Assembly: GCA_030684395.1 (NCBI GenBank)
Contig: JAUXTT010000004.1
Span: forward strand, 124,001 to 188,000
DNA from: Bacteroidota bacterium
GTDB lineage: Bacteria > Bacteroidota > Bacteroidia > B-17B0 > Aurantibacillaceae
Direction of reading: 5' to 3'
Length of the DNA stretch: 64,000 nt
Both the position numbers and the translations under genes were made by a program. Positions 27,571-39,229 of the stretch are shown in pieces; positions within the stretch are counted from its first letter, which is position 1; every line of letters begins with the position of its first letter. The notes below the pieces were generated by a model, which saw nothing but the letters and a program-made list of their open reading frames with translations, was not told the DNA's origin and did no database searches.

Positions 27571-29379
27571 ATGTCTACAATTCGTAACATCGCTATTATT
27601 GCCCACGTTGACCACGGTAAAACTACTTTGGTTGACAAGATCCTGCACACCTGCAAATTATTTCGTGATAATCAGGAAACAGGAGAACTTATTTTGGATA
27701 ACAACGACCTTGAACGTGAGCGTGGTATTACCATTCTTGCTAAGAACGTTGCCGTAACTTACAAAGGACACAAGATCAACATTATTGATACTCCCGGTCA
27801 CGCCGATTTCGGTGGTGAAGTAGAGCGTGTATTGAACATGGCTGACGCAGTTGTATTGTTGGTGGATGCTTTTGAAGGTCCAATGCCTCAAACTCGTTTT
27901 GTATTACAAAAAGCTATCTCTCAAGGAAAAAAAGCTATCCTTGTTATTAATAAAGTTGATAAACCAAACTGTAAACCGGATGAGGTGCATGATATGGTTT
28001 TTGATTTGTTCTTTAACTTAAATGCAACTGAAGATCAATTGGATTTCCCTACTGTTTACGGTTCATCTAAACAAGGCTGGATGGGTCCGGATTGGAAAAC
28101 ACCCACTCAGGATATTACCTATTTATTAGATACCATCATTGAAAAAACTCCTATCGCCCCTATTCGTGAAGGATCTCTTCAATTACAAATAACTTCTTTA
28201 GATTATTCTTCTTTCATTGGTCGTATTGCTATCGGTCGTGTTTACAGAGGAACTATCAAAGAAAACAGCCCTGTTAGTGTTGTTAAACGTGACGGAAGTA
28301 TTGTAAAATCACGTATCAAAGATCTTTTTGTATTTGATGGTTTAGGAAAAACAAAAGTAACAGAAGTTATTGCAGGTGATATTTGCGCATTTACAGGTAT
28401 CGAAGGTTTTGAAATTGGTGATACAGTTGCTGATTTTGAAAAGCCTGAAGGTTTGCCAATCATTGCTATTGATGAGCCAACAATGAATATGTTGTTTACC
28501 ATCAACAACTCTCCTTTCTTTGGTAAAGATGGTAAATATGTAACATCACGTCACTTACGCGATCGTTTAATGAAAGAGTTAGAAAAAAACTTAGCATTAC
28601 GTGTTGAAGAAACAGGTTCTCCTGACTCCTATTTGGTTTATGGTCGTGGTATTCTCCATTTATCTGTATTGATAGAGACCATGCGTCGTGAGGGATATGA
28701 GTTACAAATAGGACAGCCACAGGTTATCGTTAAAGAAATTGACGGTAAAAAATGTGAACCAATGGAGGTATTAACAGTTGATTGCCCTGAAGAATCAACC
28801 AGTAAAGTAATTGATTTGGTTTCTCAGCGTAAAGGCGATATGCTGGTGATGCAACCAAAAGGTGATTTAGTTCACATGGAGTTTGAAATTCCTGCACGTG
28901 GTATCATTGGTTTACGTAATAATATTTTAACTGCAACAGCAGGTGAAGCAATTATGGCGCATCGTTTTAAAGCATATGAGCCTTGGAAAGGTCATATCCC
29001 TCAACGTATTGCGGGTGTTTTGATCAGCAAAGAAAAAGGGACCGCCGTTGCATATAGTATCGATAAATTACATGACAGAGGCAAATTCTTTATTGCAGCC
29101 GGTGAAGAAATTTACCCGGGAATGGTAATTGGTGAGCACATTCGTCCTGATGATTTAGTTGTAAACTTGTGTGGTGAGAAAAAACTAACCAACATGCGTG
29201 CAAGTGGAACTGATGAGAAAATGCGTATTGCACCTCCTATTAAATTCTCTTTGGAAGAATCAATGGAATACATTGCAAACGATGAGTATGTTGAGATCAC
29301 TCCAAACCATTTACGTATCCGTAAGATCGTTCTTGATGAGAACGAACGTAAACGTACACAGAAATCAGTAACAGCTTAG
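27571..29379 (+). CDS. typA: Translational GTPase TypA/BipA
   Basis: 602 aa. GTPase motifs are G1 AHVDHGKTT, G3 DTPGHADFGGEVERVL and G4 NKVDK; the EF-G-like domains II, III and V and the BipA-specific C-terminal domain follow (GRGILHLSVLIETMRREGYE, FEIPARGIIGLRN, KLTNMRASGTDEKMRIAPP). It binds the ribosome and helps assembly and stress adaptation. It is monocistronic: divergent from the ZIP gene and followed by an intrinsic terminator. It marks the left border of the cassette region. Confidence 0.97.
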   Translation: MSTIRNIAIIAHVDHGKTTLVDKILHTCKLFRDNQETGELILDNNDLERERGITILAKNVAVTYKGHKINIIDTPGHADFGGEVERVLNMADAVVLLVDAFEGPMPQTRFVLQKAISQGKKAILVINKVDKPNCKPDEVHDMVFDLFFNLNATEDQLDFPTVYGSSKQGWMGPDWKTPTQDITYLLDTIIEKTPIAPIREGSLQLQITSLDYSSFIGRIAIGRVYRGTIKENSPVSVVKRDGSIVKSRIKDLFVFDGLGKTKVTEVIAGDICAFTGIEGFEIGDTVADFEKPEGLPIIAIDEPTMNMLFTINNSPFFGKDGKYVTSRHLRDRLMKELEKNLALRVEETGSPDSYLVYGRGILHLSVLIETMRREGYELQIGQPQVIVKEIDGKKCEPMEVLTVDCPEESTSKVIDLVSQRKGDMLVMQPKGDLVHMEFEIPARGIIGLRNNILTATAGEAIMAHRFKAYEPWKGHIPQRIAGVLISKEKGTAVAYSIDKLHDRGKFFIAAGEEIYPGMVIGEHIRPDDLVVNLCGEKKLTNMRASGTDEKMRIAPPIKFSLEESMEYIANDEYVEITPNHLRIRKIVLDENERKRTQKSVTA

Positions 29380-29451: not shown

Positions 29452-29467
29452 GTTGGGAATGGTTTTG

Positions 29468-29549
29468 TATATTTGTTTTAGCGAGGCAACCAATTGTAAT
29501 TAATTACAAATACTTATAATTGGAACATGCGCTTAGCGAGAAGTTAGCT
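29468..29549 (+). other. Leading edge of the cassette array, possible attI-like or promoter region
   Basis: TATATTTG (29468-29475) fits a -7 element and could drive the first cassette. TTAGCGAG occurs twice as a direct repeat (29478-29485 and 29533-29540), a perfect palindrome TTGTAATTAATTACAA lies between (29494-29509), and GTTAGCTGC (29543-29551) marks the first cassette boundary. Unlike the later borders, no long hairpin precedes this GTT, as would be expected of an attI-like or terminal border rather than an attC site. No integrase gene is nearby, so this reading is tentative. Confidence 0.3.
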
Positions 29550-29557
29550 GCAACTAT

Positions 29558-30220
29558 ATGGACTTAAAAATTGGCATAGACATAAGAAAAGACGTTTTAT
29601 TAAGTGCCCTCTACGTTGAGGGATATGTTTCGCATTTTCTCGCCAGACTTCTTAACGTAAAGGATCCTGATAAATCAATGTCGTTCGGACACACAGGTAA
29701 AGCTTTATCCTTTAATCAAAAAGTAAACCTTCTAATTGACGTAGGAGCTTTAAAAAAAGAAGACCAGACTAAATTCATAACTTTTATGGAAATAAGGAAT
29801 CAGTTCATGCATAACATGAATGCAAAAACATATGAACTATGCTTTTCTTATATAAAAGGCAAGGACAAATTTCTTTTAGGTATGTATCCACAAAAGGCAA
29901 CACTGTCACCAGAGAAACAATTAGAGAAAGCCGTTTCCGAATTAACAAACGAAGTAACCAAACTTTCCATTTCAGTAATTGATAAGATAGCAGATAAGGG
30001 TGGACAAGAAGCCAAAGCCGCAATGTATAAAGATTTGTTTGAAATTTTGAAAGAGAGTATAGTTGAGGGAACAAAAACGATTGACAATATATCTGAAGAA
30101 ATAATAAAGAAAGGCGGAACTGTTTCATCAAAAACACTTAGTGGACTTGGCAAGACAGTGAGCCAGATAATCTTTCAGACGGCAAAGAAAAAACTTAACG
30201 AAAAGAATAGCAGCAGCTAA
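29558..30220 (+). CDS. Cassette 1: unknown protein with a HEPN-like motif
   Basis: 220 aa, soluble, no signal peptide. The first half is helical and contains EIRNQFMHN, with R80-(x4)-H85 matching the Rx4-6H motif of HEPN domains; the pattern also occurs in MltR/DUF4145-type proteins, so RNase activity is not established. The second half is a Lys-rich helical tail with a predicted coiled coil. The unit begins with GTTAGCTGC and ends with GCAGCTAAC, i.e. inverted copies. The stop codon lies in the attC-like element; a group II intron is inserted there, and joining the two flanks keeps the TAA (30218-30219 plus 32077). Confidence 0.65.
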   Translation: MDLKIGIDIRKDVLLSALYVEGYVSHFLARLLNVKDPDKSMSFGHTGKALSFNQKVNLLIDVGALKKEDQTKFITFMEIRNQFMHNMNAKTYELCFSYIKGKDKFLLGMYPQKATLSPEKQLEKAVSELTNEVTKLSISVIDKIADKGGQEAKAAMYKDLFEILKESIVEGTKTIDNISEEIIKKGGTVSSKTLSGLGKTVSQIIFQTAKKKLNEKNSSS

Positions 30221-32076
30221 TCGAGTAGACGGCCTCGCCTGAATTAACAGACGAGGTGCGCCTCTCACACCACTGTACGTACGGTTCTCGTATACAGCGG
30301 TTCATTAAATTGTGGAGCTACTTTTAAGTAATAATCCAGCATTGATTCGTATCCTTTCTTTTGCAACCGTTTTAAAGTTATTGTGGTTACTAAAATTGGA
30401 CTTTGTGCAACTCGCCACCCTCCCATTCGTGTTCTACTCCACGCATACGCATGATCTTTATCTACTCCTAAACGCATAAGGTTCTTCCTTTTCCGTTCAA
30501 TCTTTTTCCAATCATGCCATATACAGTAGCGCAAGCGGTTGCGCAACCAACTATCAAGTGTTTTGAGTTTGCCATAAATACTTCCCATTCGGAAATAGTT
30601 TATCCATCCCCGTTGCACTTCTTTTAGTTTGCGGGTTCGTTCAACTAAGCTACTTGGTGTAGTTTTGCGTGTAATGGTTTTGAGTTTTTGTTTTAAAGTT
30701 TTCCAGCTTTTATCGCTCACCACTATTTGATATTTACCCCTCACTCCTTTTTCATACGTGGGTACAAATTTACATCCCAGTATTTCAAAATTCACAGGTT
30801 TGCGTATGCCACTCTTTTCACGATTGATTTGCAATTTTAGTTTCTTCTGTAAAAACAGAAATACTTTGTTACCTATCTTTTTCGCTTCACTTTTACTCTT
30901 GGTATAAATACTAAAATCATCAGCATAGCGTACATACTTGTGTTGCCCTTTTTCCAACTCTTTATCCAGTTCATGTAGCATGATATTGGACAGGAGTGGA
31001 CTTAAAGGGCTTCCCTGTGGCACGCCCTTTCTGCGTTTTGTAAGTTTTCCATTTATTAAAATGGGGGCTCTTAACCATTTGCGAATTAGGCGCATTGTTG
31101 TGGGGCATTTAACTTTGTTGTACAACAATTGAAGTAGCAAACAATGGTCTACTTCGTCAAAGAAATTTTTCAAGTCGATATCAACGATATGTTGGTAGCC
31201 ATCGTGAATGTATTTCTGTGATTGTTGTATGCATTGGTGTGCATTTTTGTTCGGTCGAAATCCGTAGCTGTGTTCTTTAAATTCCACCTCAAATTTTAAG
31301 GTGATGGATTGCGTTACACATTGTTGAAGCCAACGGTCTACTACTGTCGGAATACCAAGCAGACGCATTTTTCCGTTGCTCTTTGGAATCGATACTCCTA
31401 AGATGGCTTGAGCATTGTATCTTCCTTTGTATAGTGCCATAGCTACTTCATCTCTGTGCTGTTTCACATAGCTTGTTAGCTCACTTAACTGCATACCATC
31501 CACTCCCGCAGAACCTTTGTTCTTTAGTACTTGTTGATATGCTAAGCGCATATTCCTTCGGTTGATTACATTTTCAATCATCTTTGGTTTACTCTTTTGT
31601 TTTACTCTGTTCCGCTTAACGCATGGCTTCCGCCTATGGCGGATCCATGCAGCATTTGGAACAATTTAATGTTCGGTCCTTCGCTGATTTGTGAGTCCTC
31701 CGATTTATTCATCGGCTCGTTGCTTTCAGCTACTATGACTTCTGCTGACTTCTTTCTCGTTAGCCCGTAACGTGAAAGATCTCCCCCGGTAAGATAAATA
31801 GCCTTCAGTTTATTCCTGCTGCATCTACATAACATCGCTTTTGTATTCTTCGGACTTCGATATGGTGTGCTATCTTATCCACGATATTTTGCCTCATATA
31901 CAGTTTCTGTTCGTCAGTACAAACTTTTGTAGTCTCGCTTACTTCAGATATAACATCACTATTATCACCCTTGCGACTTACTAATGCTTCGAGTTGTTAA
32001 TTCGCGCATAAGAGATTTTCACTCTCTGGCTTCTCTATTTAATTTTAAAGAACTATATTTATCATTCAGGGCACAC
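30220..32076 (-). mobile_element. Group II intron inserted in an attC-like site (opposite strand)
   Basis: Read on the minus strand, the 5' end is GTGTGCCCTG (32076 downward), matching GUGYG, and the 3' end is CTACTCGAT (30220). A domain V candidate is at 30269-30301: ACCGCTGTA pairs with TACAGTGGT, with a two-base CG bulge and a small capped helix. A domain VI hairpin follows (CCTCGTCTG / CAGGCGAGG). The apparent catalytic triad is CGC, as known for group IIC introns. Flanking exons join as GCGCTGT/TAGCTGC. The intron is 1857 nt; 31582-32076 is its noncoding 5' half. The exact 5' base could be 2 nt off. Confidence 0.8.
30265..31581 (-). CDS. ltrA: Group II intron reverse transcriptase/maturase
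   Basis: 438 aa. RT motifs are in order: NKGSAGVDG (RT0/1 region), IPKSNGKMRLLGIPTVVDRWLQQ, EHSYGFRPNKNAHQCI, IVDIDLKNFFDEVDH, GVPQGSPLSPLLSNIMLHELD, and the catalytic YADD (VRYADDFSIY). Maturase (X) and GIIM-type sequence follows (KEVQRGWINYFRMG, LRNRLRYCIWHDWKK). There is no HNH endonuclease domain, as in several bacterial classes including IIC. The last ~11 codons lie inside the domain V sequence, with the UGA just after it. It acts on its own intron, for splicing and retromobility. Confidence 0.93.
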   Translation of the reverse strand: MIENVINRRNMRLAYQQVLKNKGSAGVDGMQLSELTSYVKQHRDEVAMALYKGRYNAQAILGVSIPKSNGKMRLLGIPTVVDRWLQQCVTQSITLKFEVEFKEHSYGFRPNKNAHQCIQQSQKYIHDGYQHIVDIDLKNFFDEVDHCLLLQLLYNKVKCPTTMRLIRKWLRAPILINGKLTKRRKGVPQGSPLSPLLSNIMLHELDKELEKGQHKYVRYADDFSIYTKSKSEAKKIGNKVFLFLQKKLKLQINREKSGIRKPVNFEILGCKFVPTYEKGVRGKYQIVVSDKSWKTLKQKLKTITRKTTPSSLVERTRKLKEVQRGWINYFRMGSIYGKLKTLDSWLRNRLRYCIWHDWKKIERKRKNLMRLGVDKDHAYAWSRTRMGGWRVAQSPILVTTITLKRLQKKGYESMLDYYLKVAPQFNEPLYTRTVRTVV

Positions 32077-32154
32077 ACAGCGCACAAGCGCCAAGCGGCG
32101 AAAAATTATTATATTTGAGAACGCCGCCTGCGCCTGTGCGCAAAACGTTAGTGG
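32077..32154 (+). repeat. attC-like site 1 (right part; left end separated by the group II intron)
   Basis: With the intron removed, the element runs from GCTAAC (left part at 30216-30219) through a long GC-rich hairpin (arms 32080-32100 and 32122-32141, ~20 bp with a few bulges, AT-rich loop) to AAAAC-GTTAGTGG (GTT at 32147). CTAAC and GTTAG are complementary, as the R'' and R' boxes of attC sites are. Total length would be about 83 bp, in the known attC range. Confidence 0.65.
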
Positions 32155-32176
32155 TAATTAAATTCAACAGAAAGAC

Positions 32177-33166
32177 ATGACTAAAATTAAAACAACAATA
32201 TTAATAGTATGCTTAATATCTTGCACCTTCAGAGGTTTTACCCAGTGTGCTGACAAGTATATTAATAATCGATTCGGTGTTGAAATTTGTAACAATTCAA
32301 ACTGGGAAATAAAGGAGCAGCTTCCATATATACTTGTAAAGTCAAACGGAATCAACGTATCAATTTATGCTGAACGATATAGCGGGGACTTAACAGCAAA
32401 GGAGATTTGGCAAACTTCATATGAGCAAGAAAAAAAGGAGAACTCAGATTTGGAATTGAAAAACCAAGAAACGATAAAAATTGATTCTATTCAAGCTTAC
32501 CTTGGAATAACTTACTTATTTCCGATTAATACCGATGCCAAGATGAGAAAGGAAACTCATAATATATCGGTTATTTTTTTGTTTAACGGTTTGAAATATG
32601 TAATAAATAATAACTGTTATTCGAATGACTGTGCTTTAAATGAAAAAATGGTTCGGGACATCATTTCAAACCTAACACTAATTAAGGAAGGCCCTATAGT
32701 TTTGACAAATGAGGAAAAAAAACAAATCACTGTATTGGGTAATAATTTATTCAACTCGTTTAAAAAAGCTGAAATCAATAGTTTTCAAAAACTCTTGATA
32801 AACAAGAAAAACATGAATGAGGGTATAGAACTCAACATGAAAGACAAGGAAATGAAAGTCAGATTTGCCAAAATAATTAATGAAAATTGGGAGGAGGCCT
32901 TCAGTCTATTTGTCACGAAGAGCGAAGAATCTTTTAAAGCCTTATCAGAAGATGGAAACAAACTAAAAATCAAATGGTCTAAAATTGAATTTATAAGTTT
33001 CACTTATGAACCTCATTCTGGAATACCCGACATGAAAAGTGTTTCTGGAATTATGACTTTTAAGTTTTCAGAAAAAAACTACGCAATTAAAATTAAAGAC
33101 ATAATATTATTAAAAGACGGTTGGTATATAGTGGAGCTTAAAGACAAACAATTGCGACAAAATTAA
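32177..33166 (+). CDS. Cassette 2: secreted protein of unknown function
   Basis: 329 aa with a signal peptide (ILIVCLISCTFRGFTQ). The mature part has two similar-sized regions separated near residue 175; the second (LGNNLFNSFKKAEINSFQKLLINKK...) looks like an alpha+beta domain with a final GWYIVELK strand, reminiscent of nuclear-transport-factor-like folds. I do not recognise a family. It is flanked by GTTAGTGGTAATTAA (32147) and its near-exact inverse TTAACTACCACTAAC (33163-33177); the stop codon lies in the latter. Confidence 0.65.
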   Translation: MTKIKTTILIVCLISCTFRGFTQCADKYINNRFGVEICNNSNWEIKEQLPYILVKSNGINVSIYAERYSGDLTAKEIWQTSYEQEKKENSDLELKNQETIKIDSIQAYLGITYLFPINTDAKMRKETHNISVIFLFNGLKYVINNNCYSNDCALNEKMVRDIISNLTLIKEGPIVLTNEEKKQITVLGNNLFNSFKKAEINSFQKLLINKKNMNEGIELNMKDKEMKVRFAKIINENWEEAFSLFVTKSEESFKALSEDGNKLKIKWSKIEFISFTYEPHSGIPDMKSVSGIMTFKFSEKNYAIKIKDIILLKDGWYIVELKDKQLRQN

Positions 33167-33304
33167 CTACCACTAACACGGGTTTTGCATCAGGTGGGCC
33201 GACGTGCAAATTCGAAGCTTTGTGCTTCTATTGAACTTTAGTAATAAATTGAACCTTTGTGCTCCGAAACCCGCCCGAACGCAAAGCCCAAAAACGTTGG
33301 CGGT
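33163..33304 (+). repeat. attC-like site 2
   Basis: It runs from CCACTAAC (33170-33177) to GTTGGCGG (33296-33303). Outer arms GGGTTTTGC (33180-33188) and GCAAAGCCC (33281-33289) pair with one bulge, and GGGC (33196-33199) pairs with GCCC (33273-33276). The interior is long and AT-rich and contains TTTGTGCTCCGAAA, also present in site 5. A reading frame through this region on the minus strand (33173-33394) is not a gene. Confidence 0.65.
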
Positions 33305-33313
33305 AATTTGAAA

Positions 33314-34036
33314 ATGACAAAAAAAACGAAATATACAGAGAACGACATTAAGAGTGTAGATACTTCCGAATGGTTCAAAATAAGACTTTTTCAAAATGCT
33401 GAAATTGACACTTTATATGTGATTATGGGATGTTTACAAGAATATTTCGGTGGTTATTCCTTAGATGAAGAAACAGTTGATGTGTTTTTTGTGGATGAAT
33501 TTGAAAAAGCCAAAATATTTCAAGGTATTTGTGAGCATTACTTGAAATCATTAAATACAGAAAGTGACATTAAGTTAATAAAAACAGAAACTGGACATTC
33601 TTATTTACAATCAAAAATTATTTGTAGAAAACTAAAGGAACATTTTTCTTATCAAGAACTGGATTTTTTGAATCATAAGTGCTATCGATTATCAGAAGAA
33701 AATGATTTATTCAAAACAGCAGAACAACTATATGGAGACAGAAACAAAATGTTCAATTTTAAGAGATATAGTTATTTGTTAGGTGTTCTAATAAAGAATA
33801 AATTGGAAAATAAACCTGCGATTAATTTTGCAAATGCTGGACACAAGGCTGAATTGGCTATTAAGATTTTAAAAGAATTTGATGCTTTTGGAGAAGATAC
33901 TTTTAGAGTGGACTATTTTTTTAGAGTTCCACACGTAACAAGAATTACATTGTCTGACAATAATGCAATTTGGTCCGAATTAGACGAATATAAAAAACGA
34001 ATAAAAACTACCGCCAACAGCGGGTATAAGAAATAG
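33314..34036 (+). CDS. Cassette 3: unknown soluble protein
   Basis: 240 aa from the ATG at 33314; a TTG at 33257 would lie inside the attC-like site and is rejected. It starts with a Lys-rich segment, then WFKIRLFQNAEIDTLYVIMGCLQEYFGG and mixed alpha/beta sequence with no motif I recognise; no signal peptide or membrane helix. The last residues (TTANSGYKK) are encoded by the next attC-like site, so insertion or recombination can alter the C-terminus. Ends: GTTGGCGGTAA at the start and CTACCGCCAAC near the stop, inverted copies. Confidence 0.6.
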   Translation: MTKKTKYTENDIKSVDTSEWFKIRLFQNAEIDTLYVIMGCLQEYFGGYSLDEETVDVFFVDEFEKAKIFQGICEHYLKSLNTESDIKLIKTETGHSYLQSKIICRKLKEHFSYQELDFLNHKCYRLSEENDLFKTAEQLYGDRNKMFNFKRYSYLLGVLIKNKLENKPAINFANAGHKAELAIKILKEFDAFGEDTFRVDYFFRVPHVTRITLSDNNAIWSELDEYKKRIKTTANSGYKK

Positions 34037-34146
34037 CGGGTACAGTGCTAATTCAAACATCCGTGCTTTTAATAAAGTTCGGCACCAAACCGAAAGTGAA
34101 GTGCTTTTTAATCCGCTAATTCTCATACACGCAAACCGTTGTGCGC
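34008..34146 (+). repeat. attC-like site 3
   Basis: It runs from CCGCCAAC (34011-34018) to GTTGTGCGC (34138-34146). Arms AGCGGGTATAAGAAATAGCGG (34019-34039) and CCGCTAATTCTCATACACGC (34113-34132) pair over most of their length with extrahelical bases. Interior stretches such as GTGCTAATTCAAACAT resemble site 5. The overlapping gene end is included. Confidence 0.6.
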
Positions 34147-34183
34147 AACCCTTACAGACAGTAACTCTAAACAAAATTATAAA

Positions 34184-35263
34184 ATGAAAATATTGAATTC
34201 ACTTTTGCTTGCAATTATTTTGACAAATAGCGTTTATTCTCAAACAATAAATACTGACGCTGTTAATAGGTTTTGGACAGTCGTTGAGTTGCTTAAATCT
34301 GATAAGCCCTTAACAGATTCTTTGTGGAATTTTTATTATAGCGTTCAAGGGAATAAAGTTTATATGGATAATAATAGAAGTGAAGAGAATGTTGCGGCAC
34401 ATCGTAAATATTTAGAATTCCTTTTTAAACCAAGTTTAACTGATTCACTAAAAAACATAGAGTCTAATATTAAGAATTTTGAAAATGACGATATTTTTCA
34501 AAATTTATATTTTATAAAATCAAATGAGCAAAAGCTTAAAGAATATTCAAAAGAAATACAAAAGCCAGCGTATTTAGAAACAAGTATTAAACTTGCTAAA
34601 AAATATTTACCAAAAAATAAGTACAATAAAATCCCAAAGAATTTGACGGTCTATATAATGGCAATGACATACGATGCAGCTGTTCAAGACAGTAGTATGT
34701 ATTTTGGAATATCTTGCGTTTATGATTTAGATAGATTTCAAAAGGGCTCTGTTGCAGCTCACGAACTTCATCATATATTGCGAAAAAACAAAGAATTTAA
34801 AATCAAATTATCCCCAAGAGACTCTGCAACCGTAGATATCGTTGACCAAGTGAATAACGAAGGTTGTGCTGACTTAATTGATAAAACAGTTTTCATTGAA
34901 AATGCAGAAAAAATAGCCATTGGAAATGCTATAAAAAATTGGTTAATTAGTGAAGCCGACAATACAATAAAAAAAATAGATTCTTGCTTTATTGTTAATT
35001 CACTTTCAATAAAAGAGTTTACTAATTCCAAAGAATTTAGAAAAATTACAAATTATTCAAGTGGACATATACCAGGGTTTTATATGGTAGACATTATTAA
35101 ACGAAATGGTTATATGAGTGAGTTGATAAGTGTTAATGACAACCCTTTTAATTTCTTTTACATTTACAATAAAGCAGCAAAGAAAGACAAATTGAAACCT
35201 TCTACATTCAGTCAACAAACAATTGAATACCTAAAAAAAATAGAAAGTAAGTTGCAAATGTGA
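34184..35263 (+). CDS. Cassette 4: secreted putative zinc protease with HExxH (DUF5700-like)
   Basis: 359 aa from the ATG at 34184; an upstream TTG start lies in the cassette border. A signal peptide ends at VYSQT. The mature protein is helical and has VAAHELHHIL (H193-E194-x-x-H197), a zincin HExxH motif, followed ~30 residues later by NNEGCADLID, whose Glu could be the third zinc ligand. This order matches DUF5700-type putative Zn-dependent proteases. Substrate is unknown. The cassette ends are GTTGTGCGC at the start and GCGCACAAC after the stop. Confidence 0.7.
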   Translation: MKILNSLLLAIILTNSVYSQTINTDAVNRFWTVVELLKSDKPLTDSLWNFYYSVQGNKVYMDNNRSEENVAAHRKYLEFLFKPSLTDSLKNIESNIKNFENDDIFQNLYFIKSNEQKLKEYSKEIQKPAYLETSIKLAKKYLPKNKYNKIPKNLTVYIMAMTYDAAVQDSSMYFGISCVYDLDRFQKGSVAAHELHHILRKNKEFKIKLSPRDSATVDIVDQVNNEGCADLIDKTVFIENAEKIAIGNAIKNWLISEADNTIKKIDSCFIVNSLSIKEFTNSKEFRKITNYSSGHIPGFYMVDIIKRNGYMSELISVNDNPFNFFYIYNKAAKKDKLKPSTFSQQTIEYLKKIESKLQM

Positions 35264-35265
35264 AG

Positions 35266-35471
35266 GTAGGGCAGCGCACAACAGCACCTAAAAAAATGCG
35301 GGAGGAAGTATAAGTTTTTTGCCTACAAGTTGCCGCTTCGCGGAAGTTTGTTATTTTTATGTAGGCAAAAAAGAGTACAGTATTTCGGCAACTAATTAAT
35401 ATTGTGTGGGTAGAAAACATTTCGGTTTCAAAACCGCACTTCTTTTAGCTCCAAACCGCTATAAGCAACCC
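35266..35471 (+). repeat. attC-like site 4 (long)
   Basis: It runs from GCGCACAAC (35274-35282) to a degenerate GCTATAAGC (35458-35466, GCT instead of GTT). Outer arms GCACCTAAAAAAATGCGG (35284-35301) and CCGCACTTCTTTTAGC (from 35434) pair well. Nested inside is a perfect 13-bp stem TTTTTTGCCTACA (from 35315) / TGTAGGCAAAAAA (35360-35372) with an inner CCGC/GCGG hairpin. At about 190 bp it is longer than typical attC sites, so the nested hairpin may be a later insertion. Confidence 0.55.
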
Positions 35472-35517
35472 TAATAAGACAACACGGTAACAAACTGACA
35501 ACAAAAGAATAGAACAA

Positions 35518-37239
35518 ATGAAGTTAAGTATATCAAAGACGATTAATCTTCAAAAGGCATTTTTCGCGTTTGTATTTACCTTGTTGACTTCTATTACTTC
35601 GACATTTGCGACAACCTACTATGTTGACAATAATGCTGGCAATGATTTGAATAATGGATTAAGCACAGGTTCACCTTGGCAGACACTTATAAAAGTAAAT
35701 TCGTTTTTGTTTTCTCCTAATGATAGTATTTTGTTTATAAGAAATGGTGTTTGGCGTGGACAACTCATTCCCCAAAGTGGTTCTGTTTTGGGCTACATTA
35801 CTTATTCCGACTATGGAACAGGTGCAAAACCTTTGTTTCTAGGTTCTGTGAATAAATCCGCAACAAGCGACTGGATTAATGAAGGAGGAAATATTTGGAG
35901 ATGTTCAGGAACTTTTTCAACTGACATTGGAAATTTGATTTTCAATAACACAACCTCATTTGGCATCAAAAAATGGAGCCAATTAGATTTAGTAACACAA
36001 GGTGATTATTGGTATGATTTAAGTAGCGGAAAACTGAAAATATTTTCAACTATTAATCCTGCTTTTTTTTATTCCGACATTGAATGCGCTCAAAGAAATC
36101 ATATTATCTATCAGCAAAATGTAAGTTATGCTGTTTTCAATAATCTGTCGCTTAAATATGGAGCTGCACACGGTTTTGGAGGAGGGAATACGCAATATCT
36201 GAACATTCGGGCTTGTGAAATTTCATACATCGGTGGTGGAGATCTTAATCAGGACGGGAGTAATATTCGCTTTGGGAATGGCATTGAATTTTGGGGCAAT
36301 GCACACGACAACACAGTTGAACAATGCAAAGTTTGGGAAATTTATGATACTGGTTTAAGTAATCAAAATCAAGGAAGCACAGTTCAACAATACACTATTT
36401 ATTACAAAAATAATATCATCTATAATTGTGCCCTTGCTTCGTTTGAATATTGGAACAAGCCTGCTTCGTCAACAACTGCGAATATTCATTTTGAAAATAA
36501 TACCTGTGTAAATGCCGGTTATGGTTGGGGAACACAGAGGCCCGACAGAGTAGGTGTACATATATTACTTTCATATAACGAGGCCAATACTGACAGTATT
36601 TTTATTCGCAACAATATTTTTTATAAAGCAAATGCTTGTTTAGCAATGCCCTCTACATGGAATACAACTAACGGATACCAAAAATTAAAATTGAGTAATA
36701 ACTGCTATTATCAACTATCACCAACCGACACTGTCGCTTTTCTTTTCTTTTCATCAGCTTATAACACCTCCTCATTTACAACTTATCAAACCAATACAGG
36801 ACAAGATATAGGTTCCTTTATCAACGACCCTTTATTTGTAAATTATTCAAGCAATGATTTTCATATTATATCTACTTCGCCTGTCATCAATCAGGGTTAC
36901 CCAACAGGTATTCTAAATGATTTTGACACCGAAGCCCGTGTTTCTTCCATTGACATTGGAGCGGATGAATTTTATCCTAACACTTCTGTAATTGTTGGAC
37001 AATTAATAAATAAATCACTTTCAATCTTCCCAAATCCAGCGACAGAAACTTTGACTATTAATTTAACCGGCAAAAACAGTACAGTACAAGTTCAAATCTT
37101 CAACCCTATGGGAATGTTGCTCAAAGAATTTGAGGTACCGGAATCAGCAAAAATTAACATTGCCGATTTGCCAAGCGGACTCTATTTTATCCATATAAAA
37201 AATCATCCGCACCAGATGCTCAAATTTATTAAACAATAA
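35518..37239 (+). CDS. Cassette 5: secreted beta-helix protein with T9SS type A sorting domain
   Basis: 573 aa. The leader ends near TSTFATTYYVD, followed by a right-handed beta-helix-like domain with recurring N-N-x-I and ENNTC turns (about 60-480), as in pectate-lyase-fold proteins, then DFDTEARVSSIDIGADEF, typical of these proteins. The last ~75 residues are a type A sorting domain (LSIFPNPATETLTINL...GLYFIHIKN...KFIKQ). It would be exported by the T9SS. No catalytic residues for a known lyase stand out. It is a large cargo gene for a cassette. Confidence 0.75.
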   Translation: MKLSISKTINLQKAFFAFVFTLLTSITSTFATTYYVDNNAGNDLNNGLSTGSPWQTLIKVNSFLFSPNDSILFIRNGVWRGQLIPQSGSVLGYITYSDYGTGAKPLFLGSVNKSATSDWINEGGNIWRCSGTFSTDIGNLIFNNTTSFGIKKWSQLDLVTQGDYWYDLSSGKLKIFSTINPAFFYSDIECAQRNHIIYQQNVSYAVFNNLSLKYGAAHGFGGGNTQYLNIRACEISYIGGGDLNQDGSNIRFGNGIEFWGNAHDNTVEQCKVWEIYDTGLSNQNQGSTVQQYTIYYKNNIIYNCALASFEYWNKPASSTTANIHFENNTCVNAGYGWGTQRPDRVGVHILLSYNEANTDSIFIRNNIFYKANACLAMPSTWNTTNGYQKLKLSNNCYYQLSPTDTVAFLFFSSAYNTSSFTTYQTNTGQDIGSFINDPLFVNYSSNDFHIISTSPVINQGYPTGILNDFDTEARVSSIDIGADEFYPNTSVIVGQLINKSLSIFPNPATETLTINLTGKNSTVQVQIFNPMGMLLKEFEVPESAKINIADLPSGLYFIHIKNHPHQMLKFIKQ

Positions 37240-37264
37240 ACAGAAATGAAAGCGAAAGACAGAA

Positions 37265-37403
37265 GGGTGGCTTGCAACAGCTGGCTTAAGAAATTGGCGG
37301 TTCAGTGGTTAAATCAAGTACTGGTTTTCAATCAAACATTAGTGCAGGTCGACAGTTTTGTGCTCCGAAATCGCCAACTTCTTAAACCTGTAAACCGTTA
37401 TAG
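37265..37403 (+). repeat. attC-like site 5
   Basis: It runs from GGCTTGCAAC (37269-37278) to GTTATAG (37397-37403). Arms 37277-37299 and 37372-37391 pair as ACAG.(C)TTAAGAA.TTGGCG / CGCCAACTTCTTAA.CTGT. The inner region contains TTTTGTGCTCCGAAA, shared with site 2. Confidence 0.65.
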
Positions 37404-37555
37404 ACACCAAACAAATTAATTTTATGAAGACAATAGATAAATTAAAAAACACAAACCGCTAGCAGCACCTAAATTCAATTTGGGCATTTAGCTTTGTCAG
37501 TAATATTTCGGTAGACAAAGTTTCAAAACTAAAATTTAGCTCCAAAACGTTATAC
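37398..37555 (+). repeat. Cassette 6 without a convincing gene, including attC-like site 6
   Basis: From the site-5 GTT to the next GTTATAC (37549-37555) there are only ~150 bp. The only frame is a 12-codon one (ATG at 37424, stop TAG before 37462), with no support. The hairpin pairs AGCACCTAAATT (37464 on) with AATTTAGCTCC (37534-37543), enclosing CTTTGTC (37492-37498) / GACAAAG (37513-37519). Its left box is degenerate (GCTAGC, not AAC). AGCACCTAAA and TTTAGCTCCAAA are shared with site 4. Confidence 0.5.
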
Positions 37556-37583
37556 AAAACAATATCAAACAAATAAAACCCCA

Positions 37584-38009
37584 ATGCCTGAAAAAAAATC
37601 GAAACTCGCAGAGATCAAAACAAAACAAACGGAAAGTAATGTTGAAGATTTCATTGCTAAAATTGCTGATGAACAAAAACGCAAAGATACTTTGGTCTTA
37701 TTAAAAATGATGCAGAAAGCATCGGGAGAAAAACCAAAAATGTGGGGCGCTTCCATGATTGGCTTTGGCATTAAAAGATATAAAAGCCCGGCAACAGGCA
37801 GGGAAGTGGATTGGTTCAAAATTGGTTTTTCTCCGCGCAAGACAAATTTCTCTCTCAATCTTGTTTTAGATATTAAGCAACATGCTACATCTCTCGCGAA
37901 ATTGGGCAAACACAAAACCGGTGTTGGTTGCCTTTACATTAATAAGCTTGAAGATGTGGATGTAAAGGTTTTACAAGAAATGGTAGATGCAGCAATGAAA
38001 GGAAAGTAA
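37584..38009 (+). CDS. Cassette 7: DUF1801-family protein
   Basis: 141 aa, cytoplasmic. It has the DUF1801 features: a N-terminal VEDFIAKIADEQKRKDTLVLLKMM helix pair, WGASMIGFGIKRYKS, WFKIGFSPRKTNFSLNL, and KTGVGCLYINKLEDVDVKVLQEMV. DUF1801 is distantly related to frataxin-like iron chaperones, but the function is not established. It follows attC-like site 6 (GTTATAC at 37549), and no AAC-bounded hairpin follows its stop, so it is the last cassette or has lost its own attC. Confidence 0.75.
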   Translation: MPEKKSKLAEIKTKQTESNVEDFIAKIADEQKRKDTLVLLKMMQKASGEKPKMWGASMIGFGIKRYKSPATGREVDWFKIGFSPRKTNFSLNLVLDIKQHATSLAKLGKHKTGVGCLYINKLEDVDVKVLQEMVDAAMKGK

Positions 38010-38054: not shown

Positions 38055-39143
38055 TTACAAACTTATTTTTATTGAGAAAAAAGTTTCACCCTTTTCTGTT
38101 TCACTAAACTCATATGTGAAATTGTTGGAACAGGTTTTGGCAATCTCCAACAAACCTATTCCAACGCGTTCTTGTGGTGATTTACTGATGTTGTCAGCAT
38201 GCTCCTTTGAATATGTATCATCAATACCTTTTAAACTTAATTCCTTTATTCCATCTAACTTGTTTTTAAAAAATGCCACTTTATCCTGTTCAATATAATT
38301 ACCACACTCCACCACAAACGATCCATTTGTTTCTGTAATTGAAAAAACACCTTCACATATACTATTGCTTTTTTTGCCATGCTTAGAAGCGTTTTTAACA
38401 AGTTCAATAAGTGTTTCAATAGTCCTTCTTTCTTCTGGAGAAAAAATGCCATCTGCCATAAAGTTAGTCCGCAAAATCTCCACTAATGGCAATAAAACTT
38501 CTCTCGACATATCGCCCTTGTATAAAATAAGGCAATTTCTATTAATAAGAATGGAATAAAGATCTACAATTGAATTGATGTTGATCTTTGCGTCGTTTCT
38601 TTCCTTTTTATCAATTATTTCAAGTGACAGGAAGAACTGACGATGCGTTTCTGTTAAGGAGTTAAAACGGTATTTAATTGGCAAACCAGATTTCCTTGCC
38701 ATTTCAATCAAGCCAAGTCCTGCACCGCCTTTTTTTGAAAATCCCTTGTTTTCCAATACATCATTGTATAAATCCCTCAGTTCATCCAGATTTAACACGT
38801 TTATTTTATCTATGTTCTTTCCTAAGTTTTCGATTTCTTCATGAGCAATCAGGTTAGCTGTAGATAAAACAATGCGTTCATTAAAAACGTTTATTTGAAA
38901 AAAATCCTTGTGGTTCTTAATAGCTTTTTTTTCCTGGCCTTTTTCAACTCCATGCCGCACTATATTTTGAAAAGATTCAGCAATAAGGAAAGAAACTTTA
39001 TTCTTTAATCTGTTAAGTTCATTGGAACTTTCGAGGTAATACTCACTTATTTCAGTGAACTTGTCAGTGATTGAATCGTCAAACGAACCAAAATAAGATA
39101 GAAAGATTCTTTCCTCACGTAAATGTTTGAACAGTTCGTACAT
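38055..39143 (-). CDS. SiaB-like (DUF6272) protein with two ATPase-like halves
   Basis: 362 aa from the ATG at 39143; a TTG at 39182 overlaps a TATATTTG promoter element (complement of 39180-39187). The N-terminal half resembles the SiaB/DUF6272 family: LIAESFQNIVRHGVEKG (N-box like) and KKGGAGLGLIEMARKSGLPIKY (G-box like). The C-terminal half repeats the layout: TIETLIELVKNASKHGKK and QERVGIGLLEIAKTCSNNFTYEF. It thus looks like two GHKL ATPase-like units in tandem. SiaB kinases work with a PP2C phosphatase and a DUF1987 partner; a phosphatase remnant lies just upstream. Confidence 0.7.
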   Translation of the reverse strand: MYELFKHLREERIFLSYFGSFDDSITDKFTEISEYYLESSNELNRLKNKVSFLIAESFQNIVRHGVEKGQEKKAIKNHKDFFQINVFNERIVLSTANLIAHEEIENLGKNIDKINVLNLDELRDLYNDVLENKGFSKKGGAGLGLIEMARKSGLPIKYRFNSLTETHRQFFLSLEIIDKKERNDAKININSIVDLYSILINRNCLILYKGDMSREVLLPLVEILRTNFMADGIFSPEERRTIETLIELVKNASKHGKKSNSICEGVFSITETNGSFVVECGNYIEQDKVAFFKNKLDGIKELSLKGIDDTYSKEHADNISKSPQERVGIGLLEIAKTCSNNFTYEFSETEKGETFFSIKISL

Positions 39144-39229
39144 TGAATAAATATTAGACCAATGATTTGTGACCTTATTCAAATATACAATTTTAAGGGA
39201 ATTAAAAAACTAATTTCTTCTGCATTTTA

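Follow-up and report, generated by a model that had tools for sequence, protein, structure and literature searches.

A gene-cassette array in a Bacteroidota genome that very probably belongs to a second, patch-less type of integron

The window analysed here is a stretch of 64,000 nucleotides from a Bacteroidota genome (GCA_030684395.1, contig JAUXTT010000004.1, positions 124,001 to 188,000), in which a row of plus-strand units spans the region from typA (27571-29379) to a minus-strand DUF6272 gene (38055-39182). A first-pass annotation, made from the letters alone, had read this row as an integron-like cassette array without an adjacent integrase, and our searches agreed: the array holds six attC sites, and the window's contig (C26) has neither a match to the integron integrase model TIGR02249 (E <= 10) nor a relative of the integrase described below. 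The window carries mobile cassettes, lined up one after another, of the kind by which antibiotic resistance spreads in other bacteria. Judged from its sequence, the array is very probably a CALIN-like cluster (cluster of attC sites lacking an adjoining integrase) of a second, patch-less type of Bacteroidota integron that differs from the canonical one. Patch-less here denotes a recombinase without the additional domain that the canonical integrase, IntI, carries between its catalytic boxes. The enzyme that moves the window cassettes would most likely be of this shorter kind, in which a region regarded as indispensable is missing, and two resistance genes, tet(X) and blaVEB, have apparently been carried by the same system.

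The attC sites were located with two covariance models. The 23 training sites of R1 included three of the window and one from another part of the same genome; R2 was built from 47 sites of other genomes that had been gathered using R1, and its sequences are independent of the window but its alignment was made with R1. A home-made stem finder, which returns many chance pairs, was used solely to choose seed sites. Because the MAFFT alignment displaced some left arms, a single site served to define the stem manually, and the model was rebuilt from the aligned matches. The covariance-model search, which the first-pass annotation had suggested as a check, brought out six attC-like sites in the window with R2 (filters off), all on the plus strand and with E from 4e-21 to 4e-6, the next match (E = 0.0057) lying within an open reading frame (ORF). 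R1 ranked the same six places at the top, the 35-kb site being only a partial match (E = 0.053). The six R2 sites lie at 32070-37558 and give the arrangement that characterizes a CALIN, in which two or more attC are spaced by less than 4 kb with no adjoining IntI. The annotation had also proposed to look for the same hairpins elsewhere, and R2 found at least 18 sites on 10 contigs of the genome at E < 1e-3, a scan that at first passed over the window site at 37454.

As in canonical integrons, the sites have AAC...GTT cores and pairing arms. Across 23 sites, of which the window contributed three, two-sided change was found in 20 of 20 stem pairs, and the covariation score was 0.686 compared to 0.197 for shuffled sites and at most 0.162 for slid registers. 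The folded bottom strand of a canonical attC has extrahelical bases and an unpaired central spacer. In the sites studied here the stem register was offset by 4 nt in 37 of 44 cases, three of the 47 having had no clear core. An Rfam scan returned intron parts, one sub-threshold chance match and nothing attC-like. Neither a plain repeat search nor the folding of single sites revealed the sites as a family; covariation and a comparison of cassette ends did.

Since the start and the end of a circulated cassette derive from one attC, a cassette's own ends should pair. The nine bases at the cassette start were found to be the reverse complement of the cassette's own end, which the first-pass annotation had not mentioned, and the R box is a 9-bp element, GTTNNNNNN. 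Over 36 cassettes, a count that excludes gaps above 4 kb and four junctions, three of which lie in the window, whose core was not clear, R boxes matched those of their own partners at a mean of 6.06 of 8 positions, compared to 3.20 after shuffling, and 0 of 20000 shuffles scored as high. Identity after GTT was 83-100% at positions 4-9, 36% at position 10 and 6% at position 11. Window cassettes 2 and 3 are among the 36 and each match at 7 of 8 positions, two cassettes of locus L069 match at just 3 of 8, and in window cassettes 1 and 4 the pairing holds by eye. It had been noted that the outer boxes fit the consensus GTTRRRY/RYYYAAC only at the GTT/AAC core. The core stands, but the box itself is not GTTRRRY; it consists of GTT and six variable positions that match the other end of the same cassette. 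Near-identical cassettes were also seen at two non-adjacent places of one array, in L162:12845-16050 (99.6%) and in L130:17249-19314 (100%), as expected from cassette re-insertion.

The genome that carries the window has no IntI above the TIGR02249 cut-off of 265. Its best match to that model, at C22:106045, scored 116.7 bits for one stretch and 210 bits for the whole protein. The corresponding ORF (C22:105742-106863) has no internal stops and encodes 373 amino acids (aa), with a SAM-like and a Phage_integrase domain following approximately 100 extra residues; the additional domain of IntI is not present between the catalytic boxes. The gene is followed by an attI-like site and then by a first same-strand cassette, which starts GTTAGGCGT and ends ACGCCTAAC, and on contig C34 a truncated copy of the integrase likewise heads cassettes. 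The suggestion that an integrase elsewhere in the genome might serve the array is therefore supported by a cognate-looking gene, whereas the IntI-type enzyme with its extra domain that was to be looked for did not appear. Both attC sites and an integrase, whose absence the annotation had held to speak against it, were found.

The spacing between the catalytic boxes sets these enzymes apart. From the box I arginine (GLR) to HxLRH there are 89-90 residues in 27 of 28 family enzymes and 96 in the remaining one, a count that leaves out L043 and L055, which have no usable ORF; five of five plasmid relatives have 89. The spacing was 131 residues in all nine IntI compared (eight from other classes of the phylum and the IntI1 of L188). 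Two Xer-like proteins of the window's genome had spacings of 96 and 104, a third being without a motif match. In a quick tree of 46 rows, one of them a duplicate, the patch-less enzymes fell outside a single IntI branch with a support of 100. The structure modelled for a relative from Flavobacterium luteum (mean predicted local distance difference test score, pLDDT, 83.4; predicted template modelling score, pTM, 0.53) has no extra domain predicted between the boxes. When this model was used as a Foldseek query, XerA was first and IntI4 fourth, the top kinds having low TM-scores (template modelling scores) of 0.42-0.44 by query.

Relatives of the C22 integrase at E ≤ 1e-60 were found in 35 of 60 genomes, including the window's own. 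A search of named genomes gave at least 587 matches, of which the 80 best were kept for analysis; Flavobacterium, Pedobacter, Chitinophagaceae and other Bacteroidota were represented among them. A set of 296 genomes of the phylum, the window's own included, was surveyed by scoring only a few first-look candidates per genome. IntI was above the cut-off in 84 of these, just one of them in the window's class, whose share of the 296 is uncounted. The patch-less enzyme was present at E ≤ 1e-80 in 31, of which 15 belong to the window's class (own genome included) and 16 to other classes, and eight genomes had both. The only canonical IntI above the cut-off from the window's class in this survey lies at G095:C40:3592-4530 and may be due to contamination or transfer. 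Locus L152, from a record titled Azoarcus sp. MAG, carries a family integrase with a Bacteroidota-type attI motif; this is perhaps a binning error and possibly a transfer.

The integrase, the attI-like site and the attC sites occur together across loci. The attI-like site lies approximately 100 bp after the integrase stop codon and has the consensus TATAWRCWAG^TT. The motif TATA.{2,7}[AG]GTT[AG] was sought within 250 bp downstream in the 76 loci that had 120 bp or more remaining after the matched ORF, and was present in 72, compared to 3 on the reverse strand and 1 upstream as controls. This form had been loosened after inspection of the misses of a stricter one, which was present within 900 bp in 60 of 80 loci (controls 3 and 2). 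As in canonical integrons, an attI stands beside the integrase, in these 72 loci, and cassettes are joined at G^TT, at the blaVEB and tet(X) junctions described below. R2 gave 177 attC matches in 47 of 82 loci (the 80 and two plasmid loci), and 177 of 177 were on the integrase strand; 15 of them lie in three loci shared with the R2 training set. At the 80 genome loci, 171 of 172 attC matches were downstream of the integrase, although 325 kb of sequence was covered downstream vs 688 kb upstream, and 39 of the 43 loci with at least 1.5 kb downstream had a match. Genomes with the integrase at E <= 1e-60 had attC in 34 of 35 cases, those without it in 15 of 25 (p = 0.00035). Less than 3 kb of contig was left downstream of 48 of the 80 integrases and upstream of 8 of them, as expected if repeat-rich arrays break assemblies.

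The first attC of the window is interrupted by a group II intron. The segment 30220-32076, on the minus strand, matched Rfam group-II-D1D4-3 (E 4e-28), group-II-D1D4-1 and Intron_gpII, and it encodes a reverse transcriptase/maturase of 438 aa (30265-31581, minus; RVT_1 6.5e-42, GIIM 1.5e-15). The annotation had counted six or seven gene units here; the row of units stands, but this segment is an intron on the opposite strand. The flanks of the intron, ...GCAGCTA on one side and ACAGCGCAC... on the other, make up the R'' box of the attC, which indicates that the bottom strand was the target, at CTGT/T. An intron that shares 67-68% identity with it over approximately 1.9 kb was found in arrays of Pedobacter arcticus (L171) and of a Chryseobacterium plasmid (L184). 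The 3' junction lies at the same point of R'' in all three arrays, between TA and A; the 5' junction motif is present in the window and L184 and was not seen in L171. According to the available part of PMC7923331, group IIC-attC introns insert in R'' at bottom-strand TTGT/T, opposite to the cassettes, and the window intron likewise occupies R'' of the attC bottom strand at a TTGT/T-like point and runs opposite to the cassettes, differing in that its target is an attC of the Bacteroidota type. That the bottom strand is targeted in all three cases fits a hairpin formed by that strand.

On plasmids, two resistance genes occupy sites of this type, with breakpoints precisely at G^TT in varied surroundings. 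The blaVEB unit starts with the same G^TTAGCGGTAATTT behind different left neighbours. In L185 (Klebsiella) and L187 (Aeromonas) it follows a Bacteroidota-type attI behind a fragment of the integrase family, its attC being cut off. In L189 (Aliarcobacter) it follows the same type of attI, and no integrase was recognised in three forward frames of the 1.2 kb before that site. In L188 it lies within a class 1 integron with an annotated intI1, where its left neighbour is presumably attI1, and in L190 it follows the attC of an aac(6') cassette. The blaVEB attC of L189 scored 47.2 bits with R2, those of L188 and L190 39.8 bits each (E 3e-7), and with default filters R2 listed none of the other attC of the L188 class 1 array up to E = 5. 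A megablast with the blaVEB unit, in which the G of G^TT is position 5 of the query, matched 50 plasmid records, 9 from the first base, 39 starting at positions 2-13 and 2 partially. That a class 1 integron holds blaVEB with such an attC suggests that sites of the Bacteroidota type can be used by IntI1. In PMC8352920, as far as its available text goes, attC was modelled for 11 taxa, none of them Bacteroidota, and no word starting with VEB occurs in the main text.

The tet(X) genes gave a similar result. The start of tet(X) is at one and the same G^TT in plasmids of Acinetobacter, Empedobacter and Bacteroides, and the match to Empedobacter brevis (97.4%) and to the tet(X2) of Bacteroides xylanisolvens (87.1%) has the G of G^TTATGTGCC as its first base. 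An R2 attC flanks the gene on either side in L217 (Empedobacter; 63.9 and 54.4 bits) and in L218 (B. xylanisolvens; 55.4 and 78.1 bits), and the ends of the L218 cassette pair (GTTATGTGCC and GGCACATAAC). Acinetobacter plasmids carry a xerD-tet(X3) unit, with the recombinase gene before tet(X3). In the Acinetobacter plasmid L186, the recombinase immediately upstream of tet(X3) is a truncated relative of the C22-type integrase, and unlike in the xerD-tet(X3) reading we take it as the remnant of a cassette head of integrase, attI and first cassette; R2 found no attC after tet(X3) in L186, where on visual inspection the end seems truncated. A concrete route for the exit of resistance genes from Bacteroidota is suggested by the blaVEB and tet(X) junctions. 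In the B. xylanisolvens plasmid, aadS (L218:1-876) is also followed by an R2 attC match (55.0 bits), and a single cassette array may therefore include both aadS and tet(X2). A plasmid of Flagellimonas marinaquae (L201:1889-2736) carries a dihydrofolate reductase-family gene on the minus strand between two R2 attC (61.6 and 23 bits), adjoining erm(F) and a short patch-less recombinase.

The system resembles the canonical integron and CALIN in its same-strand cassettes, in attC of the order R''-L''-L'-R' with an AAC/GTT core, in the G^TT breakpoint, in the attI beside the integrase, in the existence of orphan arrays and in the attC-type group II intron. It differs in its recombinase, which has the shorter spacing between boxes (89-90 vs 131 residues), falls outside the IntI branch of the quick tree and bears an N-terminal extension of approximately 100 residues. 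Its integrase gene points the same way as the cassettes, its R box has 9 bp, and the stem has a register offset of 4 nt and often an A.C mismatch. The C22-type system is not a canonical integron, since the defining IntI domain is absent, yet going by its sequence it would work like one. In the mechanism that we propose, the recombinase would act on the folded bottom strand: recombination of attC x attC would release cassettes as circles, and these would be inserted at attI, with the cut at G^TT, as by IntI. Some cassettes would land elsewhere and produce arrays like that of the window, here at a chromosomal site behind typA, and the C22 integrase may, in trans, still mobilise the window array. 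Candidate means of recognising a folded attC without the IntI insertion are the N-terminal extension and the frequent A.C mismatch of the stem. On balance we lean, with some reserve, towards a wider proposal: a second Bacteroidota integron type whose integrase never had or has lost the IntI domain and would recognise folded attC in another way, and which would be widespread in the class, have swapped cassettes with class 1 integrons and be the source of blaVEB and tet(X) in other phyla, which they would have entered as finished cassettes.

Several results weigh against a patch-less integron system as the origin of the array. The DNA folding of single window sites was clearly better than that of 200 shuffles in only one of five cases, with 38, 2, 42, 80 and 77 shuffles folding as well, and the A.C mismatch was present in only 17 of 23 sites. 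End pairing is partial and imperfect in window cassettes 5 and 6, and in the tet(X) right end of L186 and L217 (GGCTACTAAC) R'' does not match R'. The link between integrase and sites is one of position only. One attC match in L128 lies upstream of the integrase, and R2 found no attC in L110, L117, L158 and L170 (4 of 43) despite at least 1.5 kb downstream. That attC matches still occur in 15 of 25 relatives without the integrase at E <= 1e-60 indicates that cassettes are not strictly tied to it. The quick tree is coarse and has long branches that meet, and the leader of the window array differs from the consensus attI.

The alternatives were weighed against the same evidence. The window array might be an inert relic, formerly mobile but now fixed and recognised by no integrase in the cell, which we regard as possible though doubtful: the intron in the first attC, the GCT in place of GTT at attC 4, the imperfect pairing of cassettes 5 and 6, the terminal gene without an attC and array ends on C40, C29 and C16 that look degenerate by eye are all in keeping with it, but the integrase ORF has no internal stops and attC 2, 3 and 5 score well. 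An ordinary CALIN, made of cassettes of a canonical IntI system that were inserted by IntI in trans or by an IntI since lost, would account for the attC layout, the G^TT core, an intron of the group IIC-attC type and the blaVEB cassette that a class 1 integron carries together with an attC of this sort. We consider it unlikely, since the genome has no IntI above the cut-off, only one of the 84 IntI-bearing genomes of the phylum belongs to the window's class (with the class share uncounted), a different recombinase heads these arrays, and their R box has 9 bp and is not GTTRRRY. That the hairpins are dispersed intergenic repeats or terminators in an old operon-like cluster is very improbable. 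It would suit arrays that keep to one strand and single sites that fold weakly, but it would not predict cassette starts that mirror their own ends over nine bases, exact G^TT breakpoints of one gene behind different left neighbours, or a strand-locked position after a recombinase and an attI.

A still less probable explanation is that the array is a recombinase-associated acquired interbacterial defence (rAID) system without its recombinase. In the available text of PMC12247911, rAID systems of Bacteroidales have a tyrosine recombinase, co-oriented genes and intergenic motifs, a plan similar to the tyrosine recombinase, short same-strand genes and conserved intergenic motifs seen here; their assembly mechanism is called unresolved there, and the word integron does not occur in that text. 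Given this common plan, part of the idea of a second integron may already be in the air. A Bacteroides ovatus plasmid that is rAID-like by gene content (NZ_CP081918, L200:4944-11023) has a recombinase 37.5% identical to ours, with 89 residues between boxes, followed by SUKH, Imm26, DUF2262 and PoNe-immunity genes; its repeat of approximately 39 bp, TAAC..AAACCATTA, resembles a miniature attC. Unlike the sites of the window, the intergenic repeat of this plasmid is short, and R2 found no site there up to E = 5. Whereas a rAID system has a tyrosine recombinase at its head and immunity genes as its cargo, contig C26 has no such recombinase, a Pfam scan of six window cassette proteins gave no immunity domain, and PADLOC returned nothing for eight cassette proteins.

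A patch-less system would be missed by surveys that select by the IntI domain. Going by the available parts of both, integrases were picked by this extra domain in PMC2426708, and the archaeal survey of PMC9668308 calls it a defining trait, necessary for recombination. IntegronFinder 2 gave one complete integron in Bacteroidetes proper, in Salinibacter, according to the available part of PMC9024848. Smyshlyaev 2021 (PMC8138268), in its available part, calls the insertion essential for integron function and also reports that it is incompletely conserved in an integron-like subgroup of tyrosine recombinases. Patch-less members may therefore already be in the trees of that study, the same part of which does not link them to cassette arrays. 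An open-licence literature search turned up neither a Bacteroidota integron with a patch-less integrase nor tet(X) or blaVEB as its cassettes. If the patch-less enzymes work, the rule that the IntI domain is needed for attC recombination falls, and the recognition of single-stranded sites becomes testable in a second lineage.

The boundaries of the array were also assessed. The typA protein is 94-95% identical in two genomes of the same genus (G001 and G002); the stretch 3' of typA in these has no cassettes by eye and holds other sequence, the G002 contig stopping approximately 1.7 kb on. On the right flank, no synteny was recovered, the matches being short and dispersed and in several cases falling on attC 6 itself. 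Between typA and the first cassette lies an attI-like leader (29456-29543, plus), which consists of a promoter-like box, TATATTTG, and a conserved stretch of approximately 45 bp that ends in AAG^TTA at the first cassette. Three further copies are present in the same genome, on C40, C29 and C16 (L013, L014 and L015), each immediately before a first cassette. The leader was considered as a plain attI, which was not confirmed, as 20 relatives gave no match to it better than E = 0.01; it may be an attI that has decayed or else a preferred secondary target.

The pattern described in the first-pass annotation, same-strand units separated by long imperfect hairpins, was borne out at 29543-37583. All ORFs and sites in the following account are on the plus strand. 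The cassette 1 ORF (29558-30220) encodes 220 aa and is weakly HEPN_Cthe2314-like (18.4 bits, below the cut-off of 27.1). The left part of attC 1 ends at 30219, where the intron intervenes, and its right part occupies 32077-32156 (R2 match 32070-32156, 48.7 bits, E 2e-9). The ORFs of cassettes 2 (32177-33166, 329 aa) and 3 (33314-34036, 240 aa) have no Pfam match, and the cassette ends are GTTAGTGGTA and TACCACTAAC in cassette 2 and GTTGGCGGTA and TACCGCCAAC in cassette 3. They are followed by attC 2 (33168-33305, 82.1 bits, E 2e-17) and by attC 3 (34009-34147, 74.5 bits, E 1.4e-15), the latter overlapping the 3' end of the cassette 3 ORF. Cassette 4 (34184-35263, 359 aa) encodes a DUF5700 putative zinc peptidase (PF18958, E 1.6e-55). 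Its attC 4 (35273-35467, 39.8 bits, E 2.6e-7) ends in GCT in place of GTT, a departure from the description of the hairpins as bounded by AAC and GTT, which in general holds. Cassette 5 (35518-37239, 573 aa) encodes a secretion-tail protein (Por_Secre_tail, PF18962, E 1.3e-12) and is followed by the best-scoring site, attC 5 (37269-37406, 97.6 bits, E 4e-21). Cassette 6 (37407-37453), the gap between two R2 matches, is very short and carries no gene, not even a separate ORF of 50 aa. That each unit is followed by a hairpin did not hold throughout, as R2 gave no match below E = 1 after the last gene. Beyond attC 6 (37454-37558, 34.9 bits, E 4e-6), the array ends with a last same-strand ORF (37584-38009) that encodes a DUF1801 protein of 141 aa (PF08818, 33.3 bits).

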